64,000 bases of DNA from Solidesulfovibrio carbinolicus. GTDB taxonomy: Bacteria > Desulfobacterota > Desulfovibrionia > Desulfovibrionales > Desulfovibrionaceae. Shown here piece after piece: positions 3,029 through 16,185 of the stretch. The stretch lies in assembly GCF_004135975.1 (NCBI RefSeq), contig NZ_CP026538.1, positions 3,534,001 through 3,598,000 on the forward strand. The letters are read 5' to 3'. Positions within the stretch are counted from its first letter, which is position 1. Each line of letters begins with the position of its first letter. The position numbers and the translations under genes were made by a program. The notes under the pieces are model-generated. The model searched no databases and was not told the origin of the DNA. It saw only the letters and a program-made list of their open reading frames with translations.

Positions 3029-3322
3029 TTAGATGGCGCAGCCGGCAGCCGGATTCTGACAGCTCTTGGAGTCGCCGGCCGGGACCTCCGGGTCCTCGCA
3101 CACGGCCACGTAAGGGCTTAAAAATTTGATGCTGCTGTGTTTGTGGGGCAGCACCAGCCACACTTCCTTGTCCGTGGACTCCACCACCTTGACGGTGACG
3201 CCGTCGGGCACGGCAACGCCTTCCTCGCCAAGGGCTTTCGACGGATCGGCGAGCAAACGCTGCTTGAAGTCGGCATCGGCTCCGGCCTTGTCGATAATGG
3301 CTTCCCAATTCACGGTTTTCAT
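3029..3322 (-). CDS. NHLP-family RiPP precursor (nitrile hydratase-like leader peptide), orphan
   Basis: 97 aa. Residues ~1-60 match the leader seen in nitrile-hydratase-like leader peptide precursors: 'FKQRLLADPSKALGEEG' followed by 'VPDGVTVKVVESTDKEVWLV'. The leader ends near 'LVLPHKHSS'. The C-terminal ~36 residues are a candidate core containing three Cys (CEDPEV, SCQNPAAGC). Start at ATG 3322 behind a GGAGGATC site. Such leaders are normally bound by LanM, SPASM or cyclodehydratase enzymes and cleaved by C39-peptidase ABC exporters, but none is visible in this window. The gene is single, with its own terminator. Confidence 0.8.
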   Translation of the reverse strand: MKTVNWEAIIDKAGADADFKQRLLADPSKALGEEGVAVPDGVTVKVVESTDKEVWLVLPHKHSSIKFLSPYVAVCEDPEVPAGDSKSCQNPAAGCAI

Positions 3323-6940: not shown

Positions 6941-7168
6941 CCACGACGCGCGCACTTTTCATAAAAGTCAAACTCTGGGAGTCCCCCGGCAAAGCCGGGG
7001 TTTACCCGTGATTATTAATAGTTTTAGCCTCTTGACTGCGAAATGCGCTCTGTGCTTTTCGTGGACGCGACACGAGCGAGGAGAACTCCCTCCCCCTTTG
7101 AGGCGGTCCGGTCAAAGAATTGCCGGGCGGGGACAGCCGCAATCGGTGAAAATCATACGGAAATACTC

Positions 7169-8362
7169 ATGAAACTGGACATCATGACGCTCCTCGTCAT
7201 GAACCTCATCGTCAACGCCGTCAGCGCCTGGGCCATGGCCGTCATCTGGCGCGAAAACCGGCGACAGTATCCGGGCATCGGCTACTGGCTGGCCAACATG
7301 CTCCTGCAAACCGGCGGACTGGCCCTGATCCTCATGCGGGGCCGGCTGCCGGACGTGTTCTGCGTGCTTCTCGCCAACCTCATGATGCAGTCCGGGGCCG
7401 TGCTGCTGCTGGCGGGCCTTGCGCGCTTCACCGAAGCGCGCTGGCGCCAGGGCCGCAACCTCGCCCTTCTGGCCGCGTTCACCCTGGCCATGGCCTACTC
7501 GCTCTACGTCGCCCCGGACATGCAGGCCCGCCAGATCATCGTCTCGGCCTCCATCATCCTGATCACCGGACAAGCCGCCTGGCTGCTGCTGCGGGAGGTC
7601 GGGCCGCGTTTTCGGGCCGTCACCAACCTTACGGGCTACGTCCTGGTCGGCTTTGTGGCCACAAGCCTGGCGCGCATTGTCCTCATTGTGACCAACCCGT
7701 CGGGCGCCCAGGACTTTTTCAATTCCGGCACGGCCGACGCCCTGGCCATCACCCTGTATACGACCCTCAACGCCTGTCTGGCCATCTGCCTGGTGTTGGC
7801 CGTCAACCGGCGGCTTTTGGCCGACGTGGGGGCGCTCAAGGACAAGCTGGAAATCCTGGCTACCCACGACGCCCTGACCGGCCTGCCCAACCGGCCGCTT
7901 TTCTACGACCGTCTGGCCGTGGCCCTGGCCGGGGCCAGACGCCAGGACCTCCAACTGGCCATCATGTCCGTGGACCTCGACGGCTTCAAGGGCGTCAACG
8001 ACAGCCTGGGCCATCCGGCCGGGGACGCGCTCCTTCGGGAGGCGGCCCGGCGTCTGGCCGGGTGCCTGCGCGCCTCGGATACGGTGTCGCGCTTTGGGGG
8101 CGACGAGTTCGTGCTGCTCATTGGCGACGTCGGCGGCCCCGGCGATGCCCTGGCCGTGGCCGCCAAGATCCTGGTCGCTTTCCGGGAGCCATTTGTGCTT
8201 GCCGGCCAGGAGGCACACGTTTCCACCAGCATCGGCGTGGCCTTGTCTCCGGCCCATGGCCGGGAGATCGAGGAACTCGTGCGCCGCTCCGACGAAGCCC
8301 TGTACCGGGCCAAGGCCGGAGGCCGGGACGCCTGCCGGCTCTACGGCGAAGACGCGGCCTGA
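7169..8362 (+). CDS. Membrane-anchored GGDEF diguanylate cyclase
   Basis: 397 aa from the ATG at 7169. The frame is open back to 7043, but that extension is hydrophilic and breaks the membrane pattern. About six to seven transmembrane helices (residues ~5-230) precede a full GGDEF domain beginning 'DALTGLPNRPLFYDRL', with the intact active-site motif SRFGGDEF and 'SIGVALSP' near the end. The enzyme would make cyclic di-GMP from GTP at the inner membrane, with the membrane part as a sensor. I see no obvious RxxD inhibitory site five residues before GGDEF: the residues there are SDTVSRF. Confidence 0.9.
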   Translation: MKLDIMTLLVMNLIVNAVSAWAMAVIWRENRRQYPGIGYWLANMLLQTGGLALILMRGRLPDVFCVLLANLMMQSGAVLLLAGLARFTEARWRQGRNLALLAAFTLAMAYSLYVAPDMQARQIIVSASIILITGQAAWLLLREVGPRFRAVTNLTGYVLVGFVATSLARIVLIVTNPSGAQDFFNSGTADALAITLYTTLNACLAICLVLAVNRRLLADVGALKDKLEILATHDALTGLPNRPLFYDRLAVALAGARRQDLQLAIMSVDLDGFKGVNDSLGHPAGDALLREAARRLAGCLRASDTVSRFGGDEFVLLIGDVGGPGDALAVAAKILVAFREPFVLAGQEAHVSTSIGVALSPAHGREIEELVRRSDEALYRAKAGGRDACRLYGEDAA

Positions 8363-8454: not shown

Positions 8455-9510
8455 CTAGGCCTCGGACGTCGCTGCCACCGCAGCCGGACGCTTGGCTCGG
8501 ACCATGCTGCCCAGGATGATGACCGCGCCGACCACCAGCGAGACCACCATGAAGCCGAAGCTCACCTTGTCCAGCAAGGCGATGGTCGGCTCGCTCACGT
8601 CCATGAGCCCGAGTTTGGCCAGGTACTTGGGCATGGCGAACCCGCGTGACAGGGCCACGATGAGCATGATCGTGCCCATGACGATCTTGATCATGTGCTC
8701 CTTGACAAAGGTGGTGCCGATGGCCCCGAGCTGCACGCCCAGAAGCGAGCCGGCCAGGATGATGAGCGTGAGGCGGATGTCCACCATGCCCTGCATGGCC
8801 CAGTTGACCGAGCCGGCCAAACCCATGACAAAGGCGATGACCAGCTCCGTGGCCGAGGCCACCAGGCTCGACGCGCCCAGGATGTAGATCATGCCCGGCA
8901 CGCCGACAAAGCCGCCCACGGCGATGGTGGCGGCGAGCAAGCCGGTGGCCAGGCCCACGGGCAGCAGAAACCACATGGAAATGCGCAGATTGGCCTTTTT
9001 AAAGGTCATCATGGGCCACAGCTCGATCTTCTGGAGCCGCAAGGCCAGGGAGCAGGTCTGCTCCGCGCCGCAGGACTTGGCCGAAGCCAGGGCGTCGCGC
9101 ATGACGATGCCGCCGACCACCACCAGCACGGCCACGAACGATACGCTCACATAGAGGTCCGAACCGGCCGGTCCCCACAGATTGAGGACATAATTCTGAA
9201 TCTTGATGCCGATCTGCACGCCGATGCCGGCGAACGCGGCCAGATACAGCCCGAGCTTGATGTCCACCTGGCCGTACTTGTAGCGCTTGATGGAGCCGAC
9301 CAGGGCCTTGGGGAACTTGTGGCACATGTTGGAAGCCACGGCGACCGTGCCGGGCACGCCCAGGCTCATCATGCCCGGGGTGAGCACAAAGGCCCCGCCG
9401 GAACCGATAAATCCGCTGACCAGGCCGCCGATGAAGCCGACAATGAAGAGGAAACAGATTCCGGCCGGATCGAGCTGGATGAACCGGGCGGCGTCGTTAA
9501 GCATATCCAT
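8455..9510 (-). CDS. TauE/SafE-family anion permease (sulfite exporter-like)
   Basis: 351 aa from the ATG at 9510, chosen because AAGGAGCG precedes it; an upstream in-frame start at 9549 lacks a site. Around eight membrane helices with the family's glycine-rich helices 'GFIGGLVSGFIGSGGAF' near residue 30 and 'IAVGGFVGVPGMIYILG' near residue 190, which are the two TauE repeats. A cytoplasmic loop carries 'CGAEQTC'. Family members move small sulfur or carboxylic anions across the inner membrane. It is the last gene of a minus-strand operon whose first gene has a sigma-54-type promoter (see 10822-10837). Confidence 0.87.
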   Translation of the reverse strand: MDMLNDAARFIQLDPAGICFLFIVGFIGGLVSGFIGSGGAFVLTPGMMSLGVPGTVAVASNMCHKFPKALVGSIKRYKYGQVDIKLGLYLAAFAGIGVQIGIKIQNYVLNLWGPAGSDLYVSVSFVAVLVVVGGIVMRDALASAKSCGAEQTCSLALRLQKIELWPMMTFKKANLRISMWFLLPVGLATGLLAATIAVGGFVGVPGMIYILGASSLVASATELVIAFVMGLAGSVNWAMQGMVDIRLTLIILAGSLLGVQLGAIGTTFVKEHMIKIVMGTIMLIVALSRGFAMPKYLAKLGLMDVSEPTIALLDKVSFGFMVVSLVVGAVIILGSMVRAKRPAAVAATSEA

Positions 9511-9630
9511 GAAACGCGCTCCTTGAGATCGTAGAGTCGTTGGTGTCAAGCCGAAGAGGCCGGATTCACGTACTTCCTCGGAGAAACCTGTGGCGTTTCA
9601 CCAGCAAGACGCGAAAACCACGCCTTTTCT

Positions 9631-9662: not shown

Positions 9663-9962
9663 CTAGACGCTGACCGTGGCTCGGGGCCGGCTGTCCTGGC
9701 GGGCCGGGGCGCGGGTGGCGGTCTGGGCCGGAGCCTTGGTCACGGCGCTTACGCCAAGCACTTCCCACAGCGTCCCGGCAAAGGTGCCGTGGACCCAGGA
9801 GAACAGGAAGACCGTGGCGATGGGCAGGGCCGTGAACACGCCGCCCCGGGCAGACGTGGTCAAAAGGATATCCTGGAACTGGTACACGGCCGCATACAGG
9901 GCCACGCTGCCGATGCCGTAAGCCAAGAGCTTGGCCAGGGGCTTTTTCGCCTTCGCTTGCAT
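9663..9962 (-). CDS. Small membrane protein of unknown function
   Basis: 99 aa. ATG at 9962 behind a strong AAAGGAGAGG site. Two hydrophobic segments (about residues 13-33 and 43-66: 'YGIGSVALYAAVYQF', 'ALPIATVFLFSWVHGTFAG') and a positively charged, proline/arginine-rich tail. It lies between the stress-like gene and the TauE/SafE permease, so a supporting role in the same inner-membrane process is plausible. No named family recognised. Confidence 0.72.
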   Translation of the reverse strand: MQAKAKKPLAKLLAYGIGSVALYAAVYQFQDILLTTSARGGVFTALPIATVFLFSWVHGTFAGTLWEVLGVSAVTKAPAQTATRAPARQDSRPRATVSV

Positions 9963-10012
9963 CAATGCCTCTCCTTTACCCGTTCGTTCATCCGTTACAG
10001 GGACGGCGTCCC

Positions 10013-10615
10013 CTAACCAGTCACTTCAAAAAGCGGCATGCTCACCGCGAATCCATCCCTGGCCCGCTGCTCGCGGGCCGCCAGCACGAATTCCACCCGG
10101 CGCAGCCGGCCGCATTCCTGCTCCACCACCTCGGCCGGGCGGCCGAAACACACCACATGCCGAAACCCCAGCCCCAGCCGCTCGGCCTCCCGGGCGAACT
10201 CCCCGGCCGAAAGTCTGGCCCGGCGCAGAAACGCCTCCCGCCCGTTGTCCGTCGCGCCGCCCTCGGCCGGCGCGGCGACGCTTAAGCCCACGATGTCCGT
10301 GCCAAGCCGGCCGGCCACGCCCAGGGCTCGCCGAACGAGCCCCAGGGGAAATTCCGGGGCCGTGGACACGGCCACGATCTTCTTGCCCTCGGCGGCCCCG
10401 GCCCCCTGGGGCATGGGCGCTGCGAGCCGGCCGCCCGCCTCGGAAAATTCCAATGGCCCAGGCTGGCCAAGGGGGCCGGACACCACGCCAGTCAGCGACA
10501 GGCCGTGCTCGGCCAGCCCCACTTCTTGGGCCGTGTCTTCCAGGAAGCGCCGCAGCCGCGACGGGCGTCCAGGGCGCGTCCCGGGCGACGCGGCGGCCTT
10601 TTCGCGCTTGGCCAT
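10013..10615 (-). CDS. Universal-stress-like (Usp/adenine-nucleotide alpha-hydrolase-like) protein
   Basis: 200 aa. The central part 'GKKIVAVSTAPEFPLGLVRRALGVA' followed by 'LGTDIVGLSV' has the first strand-helix-second strand pattern of the Usp fold, and 'REAFLRRARLSAGEFAREAERLG' supplies the helix before the next strand. The usual C-terminal GxxGxxxxS/T phosphate loop is not evident, so ATP binding is doubtful. The N-terminal ~70 residues are low-complexity and basic. Second gene of the operon read from 10789. Confidence 0.6.
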   Translation of the reverse strand: MAKREKAAASPGTRPGRPSRLRRFLEDTAQEVGLAEHGLSLTGVVSGPLGQPGPLEFSEAGGRLAAPMPQGAGAAEGKKIVAVSTAPEFPLGLVRRALGVAGRLGTDIVGLSVAAPAEGGATDNGREAFLRRARLSAGEFAREAERLGLGFRHVVCFGRPAEVVEQECGRLRRVEFVLAAREQRARDGFAVSMPLFEVTG

Positions 10616-10621
10616 GTCGGG

Positions 10622-10789
10622 CTAGACCCGCACCCGGGGACGGTTGTCGGCCCGCTTGGCCGCCACAGCCGCCGCGTCGGCCGCCTGGCCTCCTTCGGCC
10701 AGGACTTCCCGGGCCTCCCTGGTCAGATGGCGTTCGGCAAAGGGCAGGGCGGCGAAAACGGTCTCCACATGTTCCCTGATGCTGGCCAT
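10622..10789 (-). CDS. 55-aa leader protein of the permease operon
   Basis: ATG at 10789 with AGGAGG at ideal distance; 55 aa (MASIREHVETVFAALPFAER...) with one predicted helix and a short basic tail, no membrane segment. Its stop is seven bases from the start of the Usp-like gene on the same strand. It is the first gene after the sigma-54-type promoter. The string 'HVETVFAALPFA' resembles the C terminus of the divergent Lon-like protein ('HVATVFAALPLALA', ending at 13046). This suggests a shared segment, possibly a degradation tag or common docking element. Confidence 0.7.
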   Translation of the reverse strand: MASIREHVETVFAALPFAERHLTREAREVLAEGGQAADAAAVAAKRADNRPRVRV

Positions 10790-10889: not shown

Positions 10890-10968
10890 GTTGCGAATCG
10901 CAACGCCGCGCCGCGCCATCCCCGGCCAGACGGCGTTGCCGAATGCAACAGGCGTTGCGGATTGCCAC
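10890..10968. promoter_or_regulatory. Three tandem GTTGC-N5-GCAAC activator sites
   Basis: Palindromes at 10890-10904 (GTTGCGAATCGCAAC), 10935-10949 (GTTGCCGAATGCAAC) and 10954-10968 (GTTGCGGATTGCCAC, one arm with a mismatch). They sit 55-130 bp upstream of the sigma-54-type promoter and 70-150 bp upstream of the Lon-like gene. An NtrC-family activator is encoded 2.1 kb away and is the likely ligand. Confidence 0.75.
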
Positions 10969-11036: not shown

Positions 11037-13046
11037 ATGCTGTTTTTCCAAAAACGCGCCGAGAGCGTCCTGCCGCCGCCGCCCGCCAGCGACATCGGCC
11101 AGTTGCGCACGCGCATCGAGAGCCAGGAACTGCCCCACCACGCCCGGGAAGCGGCCAAACGCGAATTGGAACGTCTGGAAAAGACCGACCCTTCGGCGGC
11201 CGAGTACGGCGTGGGGCTGGCCTATCTGGATTTTCTGCTCGGCCTGCCCTGGGCCGCCGTCACCCCGGACCGGCTGGATCTGGCCCAGGCCGAAGCCGTT
11301 CTCGACGCCCGCCACCATGGGCTGGGGCAGATCAAGGACCGGGTGCTCGAATACCTGGCCTCCCGGGCGCTACGGGCGGCCCCGGATTTCCATGTGCTGG
11401 TGGTGGACGACGAGGACATCGCCCGGGCCAATCTGGAGCACGTGCTGCGCAAGGAAGGCTTCAAGGTGCGGGGGGCGGCCAACGGCCTGGAAGCCCTGGC
11501 CGAGGTGCGGCGAAGCGAGTTCGACCTCATCGTCACCGATCTCAAGATGGACAAGATGGACGGCCTGCAGCTGCTCGCCGAGGCCCGGCGGATCTCCCCG
11601 GCCACCCGGGTGATGCTGGTGACGGGATTCGCCACCGTGGACACGGCCGTGGAGGCCATGCGCCAGGGCGCGGTCTACTACCTGGCCAAGCCGGTCAATC
11701 TCGACGAGCTGCGGGCCACCGTGGCCGCGCTGGCCAAGGAAAAGACCGCGCCGGCCTCGTTTCGAAGCCCGGTGCTCTGTTTTTCCGGCCCGCCGGGCAC
11801 GGGCAAGACCTCGGTGGGGCAGGCCATTGCCGAGGCCCTGGGGCGGCGTTTCCACCGCATCTCCCTGGCTGGCCTGCGCGACGAGGCCGAGCTGCGCGGC
11901 CATCGCCGCACCTATGTCGGCGCGCTGCCCGGCCGGGTGCTCCAGTCCTATGCCCGGCTGGGCGTGGCCAACCCGGTTTTCATGCTCGATGAGATCGACA
12001 AGATCGGCAAGGACTTCCGGGGCGATCCGGCGGCGGTGTTTCTGGAGATGCTCGACCCGGAGCAAAACAGCCAATTCGTGGACAATTATCTGGAAGCGCC
12101 CTTCGACCTGTCGCGCACGCTATTTATCGCCACGGCCAACGACCTGGCCGAGCTGTCCGGGCCGCTGCGCGACCGTCTGGAGGTGGTCCCTTTCCGTGGC
12201 TACACCACCCGGGAAAAGGTGCGCATCGCCGCCGAGCACTTGCTCCCGCGCCAGTTGCGCGAGCATGGGCTGACCCATCCCTTTCCCACGGTCACCGAGG
12301 AGGCCTTGCGATTGACGGTCACCGGCCACACCCGGGAGGCCGGGGTGCGCAACCTCGACCGGGAGCTTGGCCGCATCTGCCGCAAACTGGCCCGGCTTCG
12401 CCTGGAGCAGGGCGAGGGCCAGGCCGTCGCCGAGGTGGACGCCGCCCTGGCGGCGGCGCTCCTTGGCCCGCCGCCCTATCGGGGCGAGACGGCCGGGGCC
12501 GCGCCGCGCCTGGGCGTGGCTACGGGGCTGGTCTATGCCGACTATGGCGGGGAGATTATTTCGGTGGAAGCCATCCGCATGGAAGGAACCGGGGAGCTTT
12601 TGCTGACGGGATCCCTGGGCGAAGTGCTGCGCGAATCGGCCCGCACGGCGCTCAGTCTCGTGCGCTCCCGGGCCGGGGAGCTTGGCGTCGATCCCGGACT
12701 GTTCGCCAGCCAGGACGTCCACATCCATATCCCGGCCGGCTCCATCCCCAAGGAAGGCAGCTCGGCCGGGCTGACCGTGGCCGTGGCCCTGGCGTCGCTT
12801 TTTTCCGGTCGGCTCCTGCGCCCGGACGTGGCCCTGACCGGCGAGATCACGCTGACCGGCAAGGTGCTGCCCGTGGGCGGCATCCGGGAAAAGATCCTGG
12901 CCGCCGCCCGGGCCGGCATACGCGAGGTGCTGGTGCCCGAGGCCAACCGGCCCGAGGTGGCGGCCATGGCCGGCGAAGACAGCCCGGAAGTGCTCGTGCG
13001 CCACGTGGCCACGGTCTTTGCGGCCCTGCCCCTGGCCCTGGCTTAA
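11037..13046 (+). CDS. Lon-type AAA+ protease with an embedded receiver domain
   Basis: 669 aa from the ATG at 11037 (GGAGAG upstream; the frame stays open further 5' but without coding character). Residues ~20-112 correspond to the helical region before the Lon AAA+ module ('LDFLLGLPWAAVTPDRLDL'); the N-terminal Lon substrate-binding domain is missing. Residues ~119-235 are a complete receiver domain: acidic pair D124/D125, phosphoacceptor D168 in 'IVTDLK', Lys in 'LAKP'. The AAA+ module follows with Walker A GPPGTGKT (251-258) and Walker B MLDEID (316-321). The C-terminal S16 peptidase has the Ser/Lys dyad at about S576 ('PKEGSSAG') and K619 ('GGIREK'). Likely a cytoplasmic ATP-dependent protease gated by phosphorylation. 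It is flanked by an NtrC activator and kinase. Confidence 0.9.
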   Translation: MLFFQKRAESVLPPPPASDIGQLRTRIESQELPHHAREAAKRELERLEKTDPSAAEYGVGLAYLDFLLGLPWAAVTPDRLDLAQAEAVLDARHHGLGQIKDRVLEYLASRALRAAPDFHVLVVDDEDIARANLEHVLRKEGFKVRGAANGLEALAEVRRSEFDLIVTDLKMDKMDGLQLLAEARRISPATRVMLVTGFATVDTAVEAMRQGAVYYLAKPVNLDELRATVAALAKEKTAPASFRSPVLCFSGPPGTGKTSVGQAIAEALGRRFHRISLAGLRDEAELRGHRRTYVGALPGRVLQSYARLGVANPVFMLDEIDKIGKDFRGDPAAVFLEMLDPEQNSQFVDNYLEAPFDLSRTLFIATANDLAELSGPLRDRLEVVPFRGYTTREKVRIAAEHLLPRQLREHGLTHPFPTVTEEALRLTVTGHTREAGVRNLDRELGRICRKLARLRLEQGEGQAVAEVDAALAAALLGPPPYRGETAGAAPRLGVATGLVYADYGGEIISVEAIRMEGTGELLLTGSLGEVLRESARTALSLVRSRAGELGVDPGLFASQDVHIHIPAGSIPKEGSSAGLTVAVALASLFSGRLLRPDVALTGEITLTGKVLPVGGIREKILAAARAGIREVLVPEANRPEVAAMAGEDSPEVLVRHVATVFAALPLALA

Positions 13047-13069: not shown

Positions 13070-14428
13070 CTACTCCACGGCCAGCCCCAGGCGCTTGACC
13101 TTGCGCCACAGCGACACCCGGTCGATGCCGAGGATCTCGGCCGCCCGGGTCTTGTTGCCGTCGCAGTAGGTCAGGATGTCGCGGATATGGCGGCGTTCCA
13201 GCTCCTCCAGGGCAATGAGCTCCGGCCCCTCGCGCCGGGCCAGGGCCGGGGCGTCGCCATGCAGGTCCTGGGGCAGGTCGCCGGCCTCGATGACCTCGCC
13301 CCGGGCCATGATGACGGCCCGCTGGACGATGTTTTCCAGCTCCCGGATGTTGCCGGGATACTCGTAGGCCATGAGCCGCCGCACGGCCTCGGCGGAAAAG
13401 CCGGTCACGGGCTTGTCCATGCCCCGGGCGTAGCGGGCGGCAAAGGCCCCGGCCAGCAGCGGAATGTCCTGGCGGCGGGCGGCCAGCGGCGGCACGCGCA
13501 GGGTGATGACGTTTAGGCGGTAGTACAGGTCGGCCCGAAACAGCCCGCGTTCCACGTCGGCCTTGAGGTCGCGGTTGGTGGCGGCCAGGATGCGGGCGGC
13601 CACGGGAATTTCCTTGTCCCCGCCCACCCGGAAGAAATGCCGCTCCTGAAGCACGCGCAAAAGCCGCACCTGCATGCTGGGCGACATCTCACCGATCTCG
13701 TCCAGAAACAGCGTCCCCTCCCCGGCCACCTCGAAAAGGCCTTTTTTGAGGCTCATGGCCCCGGAAAAGGCCCCCTTTTCGTGGCCGAAAAGTTCGCTGG
13801 TCAACAGTTCCTCGGTAAATGCCCCGCAGTTGACGGCCAAAAAACGGTTGGCCCGTTGCAGGCCGGCGGCGTGGATGGCCCGGGCCACCAGCTCCTTGCC
13901 CGTGCCGGTCTCGCCCAGGATCAGCACCGTGGAGTCGGTGGGCGCGATGTGGCGGATGTTGTCGATAAGCGCCAGGATGGCCGGACTTTCGCCGATAATA
14001 AGCGGCCCCTGCCCAAGCTCGGCCACTTGCCGCGACAGCCGGGCCACCTCCAGGCGCAGCCGGCGCTTGTCCATGGCCTCGGCCACCGTGGCCCGGACCT
14101 CGGCCAGGCCGTAGGGCTTGGTCAGGTAGTGACAGGCCCCCAGGCGCATGGCCTCCACGGCCGAGGCCACCGTGGCGTGGCCGGTCATGACCACCACTTC
14201 GGTATCCGGCCACAGCCGCTTGGCCTCCCCCAGCACGGCCAGCCCGTCCAGGCCCTTCATGCGCAGGTCCGTCAGGACCAGATCGAATTCCTTGTCGGCA
14301 AGCAAGGCCACGGCCGCCTCGCCGCTGGCCGCCGCAACCACGTCGTAGCCCTCCCGGGTCAGGATGTGGCTGAGGTTGTCCACGGCAATGGCCTCGTCAT
14401 CGACCACCAGCACCGACGCGCCCGTCAT
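13070..14428 (-). CDS. NtrC-family sigma-54-dependent response regulator
   Basis: 452 aa: receiver domain (residues 1-~120, phosphoacceptor D54 in 'VLTDLRM'), sigma-54 interaction AAA+ domain (~142-375; Walker A GETGTGKE at 171-178, Walker B LFLDEIGE at 239-246) and a Fis-type HTH at the C terminus ('NKTRAAEILGIDRVSLWRK'). The sigma-54-contacting loop reads GAFSGA (218-223) instead of the common GAFTGA. It is co-transcribed with the upstream kinase gene (4-bp overlap), its probable partner. The GTTGC palindromes and sigma-54-type promoter at 10.8-11.0 kb are the probable targets. Confidence 0.93.
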   Translation of the reverse strand: MTGASVLVVDDEAIAVDNLSHILTREGYDVVAAASGEAAVALLADKEFDLVLTDLRMKGLDGLAVLGEAKRLWPDTEVVVMTGHATVASAVEAMRLGACHYLTKPYGLAEVRATVAEAMDKRRLRLEVARLSRQVAELGQGPLIIGESPAILALIDNIRHIAPTDSTVLILGETGTGKELVARAIHAAGLQRANRFLAVNCGAFTEELLTSELFGHEKGAFSGAMSLKKGLFEVAGEGTLFLDEIGEMSPSMQVRLLRVLQERHFFRVGGDKEIPVAARILAATNRDLKADVERGLFRADLYYRLNVITLRVPPLAARRQDIPLLAGAFAARYARGMDKPVTGFSAEAVRRLMAYEYPGNIRELENIVQRAVIMARGEVIEAGDLPQDLHGDAPALARREGPELIALEELERRHIRDILTYCDGNKTRAAEILGIDRVSLWRKVKRLGLAVE

Positions 14429-15855
14429 GCCGCGCCCGTCCCGGTCCGGAGCAGGGGCAGGCGGATGACGAAGCGCGCCCCCCGGCCGCCGGTTTTTTCG
14501 GCCACGATGGACCCTTGATGCTTTTCGATGATGCCGAAAACGATGGACAGCCCAAGGCCCGTGCCCTTGCCCACCTCCTTGGTGGTGTAGAAGGGATCGA
14601 AGACCCGGCCCAGGTCTTCGTCGGCAATGCCCGGTCCGGTGTCCTCCACCACCAGGGCCACGGCCTCGCCGTCGATGCGGGCCGAGACCGTGATGGCCCC
14701 GGACGGGGCGTCCATGGCCTGGACGGCGTTTAGCAGCAGGTTGATGAGCACCTCCTGCATCCGGGCGGCGTCGAGGTTAAGGATCAGATCCTCGGGCACG
14801 TCCCGGGACAGGGTGATGCCCGACGGCGTCTGGCTCGACACCAGCCTAAACGCCCCGGCCACCACCGGGGCCAGGGGCGTGGGCTTGAGACTGAAGTCCT
14901 TGGCCCGGGAAAATTCCAGCAGCCCTTTGACGATGTCCCGGGCTCGCAGCACCTCCTGCTGGATGTTGGCGAGCATCCGCCCGGCAAAGGCCGGCTCGCA
15001 CTGGCCGTGCTCCTCAATGAGGATCTGGCAGGAGGTGGAGATGTTATTGAGGGGATTGTTGAGCTGGTGGGCGATGCCCGAGGTCAACACGCCAAGGGAC
15101 GACAGCTTTTTTTCCTGAACGAGCTGGGCCTGCCGGCGCTCCAGCTCCCGGGTCATGCGGTTAAAGGCCTCAATGACCTGGCGCGTCTCGTCGTCGGCCT
15201 GGGGGGGAGTCAGGGTCTTGAAACGGCCCTGGCCGATGTCGGCCGTGGCCTGGACGATGACGCCCAGGGCGCGCAGGATCTTGCGGGCCAAAAGCCAGGC
15301 CAGGGCCAGGGCCGAGGCGATGACGCACAGCCCGGCCACCAGCAGCTGCCGTTTGAGGTTGGACACCAGGGCCAGGGTGCGGCTGCGCTCGGCGTTTTTG
15401 ATGTCCAGCGACAGATCAACCATATCCTTGCCGGCCTGGCGCAGGGCGTCCAAGTGTTCGGCCGGGGCGGCGGCGGCCGGCCCCAGGGCTTGCCCCTTGG
15501 CCTGGTAGGTATTAAGCGCCGCATCCAGGGCGGCGATGCCCCGGCGGCTGCGGCCGTCGCGGGCGTCGGCGGCCATGGCGAGCAAGGTGGCCCGGGCCTG
15601 GTCGATGTAGCGCTGGGCTTCCTCGAAATCCTCGCCGTGGCCGTAGAGCAGGTAATTTTTCTCGTAACGCCGCACTTCCAGGATGGTGTTGGAGAGGTCG
15701 TCGGCCATCTCCATAAGCGTCAGCGTCGTTTCCAGACGGGTCAGGGAATTGAGCGACACCACGCCGACCACGGCAAAGGCCAGCACCGGAATGACGACGC
15801 CGGCCAGCACCTTCTGGCGGATGGTGAGATGGGGCAGCCGAAGCCACTGTAACAA
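14425..15855 (-). CDS. Membrane sensor histidine kinase (NtrB/AtoS-like layout)
   Basis: 476 aa from a TTG at 15855 with GGGAGGA in front; a GTG at 15903 in frame lacks a site. TM1 at about residues 14-36, a ~140-residue periplasmic helical domain ('RRYEKNYLLYGHGEDF', typical of four-helix sensor modules), TM2, HAMP, HisKA with 'SGIAHQLNNPLNNI' (phosphoacceptor His in AHQ) and HATPase (N box 'LLLNAVQAM', 'DTGPGI', 'GTGLGLSI'). It would sense a periplasmic signal and phosphorylate the NtrC-type regulator whose gene overlaps its stop. Confidence 0.9.
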   Translation of the reverse strand: MLQWLRLPHLTIRQKVLAGVVIPVLAFAVVGVVSLNSLTRLETTLTLMEMADDLSNTILEVRRYEKNYLLYGHGEDFEEAQRYIDQARATLLAMAADARDGRSRRGIAALDAALNTYQAKGQALGPAAAAPAEHLDALRQAGKDMVDLSLDIKNAERSRTLALVSNLKRQLLVAGLCVIASALALAWLLARKILRALGVIVQATADIGQGRFKTLTPPQADDETRQVIEAFNRMTRELERRQAQLVQEKKLSSLGVLTSGIAHQLNNPLNNISTSCQILIEEHGQCEPAFAGRMLANIQQEVLRARDIVKGLLEFSRAKDFSLKPTPLAPVVAGAFRLVSSQTPSGITLSRDVPEDLILNLDAARMQEVLINLLLNAVQAMDAPSGAITVSARIDGEAVALVVEDTGPGIADEDLGRVFDPFYTTKEVGKGTGLGLSIVFGIIEKHQGSIVAEKTGGRGARFVIRLPLLRTGTGAA

Positions 15856-16185
15856 GGCGTCCTCCCGGGGCTGGGGCGGCCATACGCCGTCCGCCCGGGG
15901 CACGGTACGCCCGAGCCGGGCTTTTGTCAGCCCGGCCGGCGGCCGGCCCGAGGCCGGAGCCGACCGGCCTTCCCAAGCGGACGGACCTCGGCCGGAACAT
16001 GTCCGGCCGCGTCGGTCATGGCCCGGACAGGCGACGCCCGCGTCAGCCTACGCCAACGACAAAGCGATTGACCGGATGTGCCGATTTTCTTATGGTTTTA
16101 TGGTCCGAAACAGTCGACTCCAGCCTTGCCCTGGCTATAGCGACGTACCGGCGCCTGCCCACAACCCCTGGCAACGGAGCACGAC

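Follow-up and report, generated by a model that had tools for sequence, protein, structure and literature searches.

It is known that receiver domains can act on proteases via separate adaptors. If a receiver were instead part of the protease motor itself, regulated proteolysis would become a direct two-component output. The closest described case is DVU3303 of Desulfovibrio vulgaris Hildenborough. Rajeev et al. (2011) reported it as a response regulator that contains a Lon protease, belongs to a three-component system, and may require phosphorylation (PMC3333781). According to the sections of that report dealing with this system, DVU3305 targets both gene groups, and the site as well as the linkage are kept in most of the related genomes named there. 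The same two gene groups are listed under DVU3305 in the corresponding part of PMC4641369. In the passages of a fitness study from 2023 that concern this locus (PMC10102598), the protease, kinase, and regulator genes show a co-fitness of >0.9 and the loss of any of them is beneficial in chlorate, while loss of the target transporter DVU3299 is harmful under chlorate (fitness -2.3). The authors of this study propose expression of DVU3299 as a possible route to the phenotype. In a literature search judged by titles, with subscription journals outside its scope, no other listed title was plainly about a fusion of Lon and a receiver. This kind of protein was described in 2011 and is under-studied, and the novelty that the initial annotation attached to the arrangement gives way to this precedent.

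Here, we present a computational analysis of a locus of this kind in Solidesulfovibrio carbinolicus. The window analysed is a stretch of 64,000 nucleotides (contig NZ_CP026538.1, positions 3,534,001 to 3,598,000), and all coordinates below refer to it. New in this study are the ancestry and likely contact residues of the receiver, a unique palindrome pair, and a survey of Usp-like and transporter genes in the neighbourhood.

Domain architecture of the protease

The Lon-type open reading frame extends over positions 11037-13046 of the plus strand, with its ATG at 11037 and a stop codon ending at 13046, exactly as first annotated. It encodes a protein of 669 aa, here termed REC-Lon, with architecture and neighbours as described for DVU3303. 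Pfam profiles detected four domains, all over their cut-offs: a receiver (Response_reg, residues 120-229, positions 11394-11723, E 1.1e-29), an AAA+ ATPase (AAA, residues 247-384, positions 11775-12188, E 8.7e-21), the Lon lid (Lon_lid, residues 409-459, positions 12261-12413, E 2.5e-15), and the S16 protease domain (Lon_C, residues 468-657, positions 12438-13007, E 1.1e-64). A receiver and the Lon AAA+ and S16 modules are thus combined in one chain, as expected of the DVU3303 type. In addition, the protein scores 608.9 bits against the LonA profile TIGR00763 (cut-off 608.05). The residues expected of a response regulator are all found in the sequence, namely the phosphorylatable D168 (codon 11538-11540), the acidic pair D124 and D125, T196, and K218. 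The AAA+ domain carries the Walker residues K257 and D318/E319, the pore residue Y293, and R380, and the Ser-Lys dyad of LonA is represented by S576 (codon 12762-12764) and K619 (codon 12891-12893).

Alignment to the solved Lon protease of Thermus thermophilus (7p6u) falls into two blocks, with residues 18-114 of the query corresponding to 249-345 and residues 243-664 to 352-771. The first block, encoded at positions 11088-11378, comprises the Lon helical region and the helix before strand 1 of the AAA+ domain. No Pfam match to the N-terminal substrate-binding domain of LonA was obtained at E 0.01, and the alignment starts only at residue 249 of 7p6u. These blocks indicate that the N-domain is absent, that the helical region is kept, and that the receiver replaces about six residues of 7p6u. 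A finer placement is given by an AlphaFold model, in which a helix (97-113) is followed by the receiver (119-234), a low-confidence linker (236-244), and AAA+ strand 1 (246-250); as modelled, the receiver sits after the helix preceding this strand. The model was built from 17 sequences, is of moderate quality (pLDDT 75.7, pTM 0.56), and is without ring geometry. All 50 structures among the Foldseek matches listed for it are Lon proteases, with rmsd values of 13.6-17.2 Å that probably reflect domain placement and are unfit for close reading. Pfam, the 7p6u alignment, and the model therefore bear out what the initial annotation had read from the letters, a receiver between a shortened Lon helical region and the AAA+/S16 modules with the substrate-binding domain missing, and the receiver itself withstood the profile search. 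Three more Lon_C matches occur in the same genome: two are strong and lie in open reading frames of 862 aa and 956 aa, and the third is weaker, so REC-Lon is an extra copy.

Relatives and conservation of residues

In the class, 117 of the 348 genomes searched have a REC-Lon match at E <= 1e-150, with overlap of the receiver in the matches listed. In an evenly drawn sample of 395 genomes of the phylum, which overlaps the class draw, 50 genomes match at the same threshold; in two of them the match begins only at residue 242, which leaves 48. For a closer survey, 72 relatives were picked by a score of >500 bits, a match starting at query residue <=35, a surrounding stretch of >=8 kb, and distinctness of sequence; loci on short stretches were dropped. 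Counts over these 72 loci are not independent, since many of the relatives have their genus in common with others, and the set overlaps a second one of 57 proteins. Residues D124, D168, K218, K257, E319, Y293, R380, S576, and K619 are each present in 72/72 relatives, and D125 and T196 in 70/72 (E and S, respectively, in the other two). The claim that the acidic pair, D168, the lysine, and the catalytic residues are intact can be extended to these relatives, apart from the two D125 exchanges. Among the 57 proteins, D124, D125, D168, T196, K218, K257, D318, E319, Y293, and R380 are invariant, the pore residue V294 is kept in 56 (A in one), and S576 and K619 are likewise found in 56, the exception being a protein cut by a contig end. 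Judged by this conservation, the architecture and its conserved residues are not a product of chance.

In one genus, matches end at query residues 460-500, as if the protease domain were lost. This reading was rejected, the early ends being an artefact of low-complexity linker insertions, and the five complete proteins of this genus extend to residue 647. The insertions are Gly-rich, measure 11-47 residues, and occupy the same three places in loci L115-L120 (the third is uncovered in the cut L120). In one further relative (G245), the match ends at query residue 422. The C-terminal tail of REC-Lon is not conserved beyond close relatives.

Neighbouring genes

Downstream of and convergent with REC-Lon, on the minus strand, lie the gene of an NtrC-type sigma-54 activator with receiver, sigma-54 AAA+ domain, and Fis-type HTH (13070-14428), the partner regulator, and that of a histidine kinase with HAMP, HisKA, and HATPase_c domains and a weak HBM-like sensor match under the cut-off (14425-15903). 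The two genes overlap by 4 bases and provide the adjoining kinase and regulator typical of the DVU3303 type. Upstream and divergent, also on the minus strand, are found a gene for a Usp-like protein of 200 aa (10013-10615; Pfam Usp under cut-off), an ORF of 100 aa with a membrane-spanning look by eye and no Pfam match (9663-9965), and a gene for a transporter of the TauE/SafE family (8455-9549; PF01925).

Several further features of the surroundings were recorded. A diguanylate cyclase (GGDEF) gene at 7043-8362 on the plus strand adjoins the TauE gene. Ahead of the Usp-like gene lies an ORF of 55 aa (10622-10789, minus strand), the start of which resembles the REC-Lon tail by eye, possibly by chance; this similarity was dropped, as the tail is poorly conserved and the Pfam hit of the ORF is under cut-off. 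At 3029-3322 of the minus strand, the window encodes a RiPP precursor of 97 aa with an NHLP (nitrile hydratase-like) leader (TIGR03793, 64.8 bits against a cut-off of 50.9).

Across the relatives, an NtrC-type regulator was found within the fetched stretch at 49/72 loci and a kinase at 57/72, these and the other neighbour counts being lower bounds because the fetched sequence sometimes stops at a contig end or inside a gene; two loci (L128 and L129), for example, carry NtrC pieces under the score threshold. At 15/72 loci, neither NtrC nor kinase exceeds the thresholds within the stretch; at 8/72, a TauE match by BLAST is missing as well. By BLAST, TauE was detected at 46/72 loci, upstream and divergent in 45, and Pfam adds one (L225) to give 47. 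On the upstream side of 17 loci without TauE, a CitMHS-like protein is encoded; by these counts, the two families never occur together at one locus. Thus, one or the other family lies beside REC-Lon at 64/72 loci and neither at 8. Of these 17 loci, six were scanned with Pfam (L197, L125, L128, L020, L222, L219) and all six contain CitMHS (seven proteins, six with TrkA_C), the remaining 11 being assigned by phmmer similarity alone. The CitMHS-like genes of L012, L019, and L222 are on the protease strand, that of L012 being a short frame, and that of L224 is 4.5 kb off. A Usp-like gene lies divergently within 1.5 kb at 55/72 loci (60 frames), a somewhat circular count, since only hits at this position were fed into the profile iterations and 34 more hits lie elsewhere in the same loci. 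Taken together, these neighbours point to REC-Lon as part of a signalling system with a link to an anion transporter. That two transporter families replace each other next to a conserved protease raises the physiological question of which anion is handled.

Ancestry of the receiver and putative kinase-contact residues

With the receivers of 29 NtrC partners, the Lon receiver of the window shows 42-53% identity. Its identity to 40 further receivers, drawn from loci of its own genome, which has 150 Response_reg matches, does not exceed 37%. In a tree of 126 receivers, a branch with SH-aLRT 99 separates the 57 Lon and 29 adjacent NtrC receivers from the 40 background receivers. The Lon receivers cluster together (SH-aLRT 85), and two label changes are required for the NtrC partners; the tree is based on 120 columns, and 54 of its 122 inner branches are open. 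On the evidence of these sequences, the Lon receiver has common ancestry with that of the adjacent NtrC-type regulator, and the tree is consistent with a single transfer of a partner-type receiver into Lon.

Five putative contact positions were compared (REC-Lon 128, 129, 132, 135, and 136), which we take to be the Spo0F contact residues 14, 15, 18, 21, and 22. Here, Lon and NtrC receivers of the same locus are 70% identical, in comparison to 5% with the 40 background receivers, a contrast that is partly post hoc because the positions were fixed, by Spo0F numbering, after a first look at the table. Against the nine NtrC-type receivers of the background, the Lon receivers reach 6% identity. The rest of the domain gives 48% for same-locus pairs versus 30% with the background, and an initial choice of alpha-1 positions gave a weaker contrast (0.41 versus 0.17). 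Asparagine 132 occurs in 57/57 Lon receivers, 29/29 partner receivers, and 0/40 background receivers, and also in 72/72 of the wider set, including loci without an adjoining partner. At the variable positions 135/136, 21 within-locus matches were counted against a shuffled mean of 25.7, with 99% of shuffles as high or higher, which gives no hint that the two receivers co-vary at a fine level. From these comparisons, the two receivers likely share their kinase-contact residues. The earlier proposal that REC-Lon has a phosphate source in common with the neighbouring activator and kinase gains support from the receiver phylogeny, the contact residues, the gene linkage, and the co-fitness published in PMC10102598.

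A palindrome pair in the divergent promoter

Two palindromes of the pattern TTGC-N5-GCAA lie between the divergent genes, TTGCGAATCGCAA at 10891-10903 and TTGCCGAATGCAA at 10936-10948, the second beginning 45 bp after the first; they are putative regulator sites. A pair of this pattern with 20-50 bases between the copies exists at one place in the 4.69-Mb genome, the REC-Lon divergent promoter, and a control pair of the reversed pattern at none; this count covers pairs at that distance. Within 420 bp upstream of REC-Lon, 42/72 loci contain at least one palindrome, 30/72 at least two, and 30/72 none. The background amounts to 24 of 1765 tiles, mostly coding, and four control patterns occurred in the same upstream stretches at 3, 2, 1, and 1 of the 72 loci. 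Nineteen of the spacings listed lie at 86-91 bp and five at 78 bp, compared to 45 bp at the window locus. The pair is likely read by the NtrC partner. A rough scan of the window locus for sigma-54 -24/-12 sites ahead of REC-Lon gave no hit over the threshold.

Proposed function and alternative explanations

We consider it probable, with some reserve, that REC-Lon is a response regulator with phospho-gated proteolysis and forms the proteolytic arm of a three-component system. The histidine kinase, probably membrane-bound, would phosphorylate two receivers of common descent, that of the NtrC-type activator and that of REC-Lon. Once phosphorylated, the activator would occupy the palindrome pair in the divergent promoter and induce both REC-Lon and the Usp-like/TauE gene group. 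A phosphoryl group on D168, just ahead of AAA+ strand 1, may alter ring assembly or ATPase coupling and so license proteolysis, the phospho-receiver standing in for the missing N-domain. While we infer phosphotransfer to REC-Lon and the reader of the palindromes, our statements on the direction of the switch and on the substrate are guesses. The likeliest targets would be the co-encoded Usp-like protein or the transporter, an assignment that we regard as tentative. Equally tentative is the wider idea that one kinase governs how the products of a single gene group are made (NtrC arm) and broken down (Lon arm), so that the built-in switch sets the level of an anion transporter or of the Usp-like protein, with TauE and CitMHS exchangeable across lineages. 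The opposite signs in chlorate, where transporter loss harms and loss of kinase, regulator, or protease helps, fit a protease that limits the transporter or its companion and misfit one that merely removes the kinase or the regulator (PMC10102598, passages on this locus).

The direction of the switch is unreadable from sequence, and the receiver might instead repress, with unphosphorylated REC-Lon active or phosphorylation shutting it off, so that the protease would act mainly with the kinase off. Receivers are able to inhibit as well as to activate. Nevertheless, the loss of a kinase should oppose the effect of losing the protease it inhibits, unless expression dominates, and the losses of protease, kinase, and regulator all help in chlorate at co-fitness >0.9, which implies that the three act one way (PMC10102598, same passages); we regard repression as unlikely. 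The similar fitness patterns of the three genes, together with the DVU3299 expression route suggested by the 2023 authors, would also suit a protease that removes an inhibitor and thereby allows the NtrC arm to act, with a phenotype arising only via transporter transcription. Simple activation predicts otherwise than the harm from transporter loss and the benefit from losing the presumed activator (PMC10102598, same passages), and this explanation appears less probable still.

The receiver may also act as a targeting device that docks Lon on the kinase or another signalling protein, which the protease then removes in a feedback loop. Such a role would suit its likely kinase-contact residues common to the NtrC partner, and the receiver proteins RssB and CpdR act as protease adaptors elsewhere. 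A negative-feedback protease, however, predicts a phenotype opposite to that of its system, and the signs given in the same passages are alike with co-fitness >0.9 (PMC10102598), which makes this the least probable of the three alternatives. Phospho-gated proteolysis by REC-Lon remains the reading that we prefer.

Comparison with known systems

The REC-Lon protein of the window is of the DVU3303 kind, a match made by architecture and neighbours. Like DVU3303 with its kinase DVU3304 and the NtrC-type regulator DVU3305, it is a Lon-bearing response regulator beside a kinase, a sigma-54 regulator, and genes for a Usp-domain protein and an anion transporter (PMC3333781, PMC10102598). In contrast to the D. 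vulgaris genes, which are treated as one operon, the NtrC-type regulator and kinase genes lie here on the opposite strand and run towards the protease. With LonA (TIGR00763; 7p6u, 3m6a, 4ypl), REC-Lon shares the helical region, AAA+ domain, lid, and S16 domain with its Ser-Lys dyad, but it differs in being without the N-domain and in having a receiver inserted before AAA+ strand 1. In the manner of NtrC-type response regulators, a receiver feeds an AAA+ ATPase, and this receiver is closest to that of the adjacent NtrC-type regulator; unlike in those regulators, the AAA+ domain is of the Lon type and the predicted output is proteolysis instead of sigma-54 activation.
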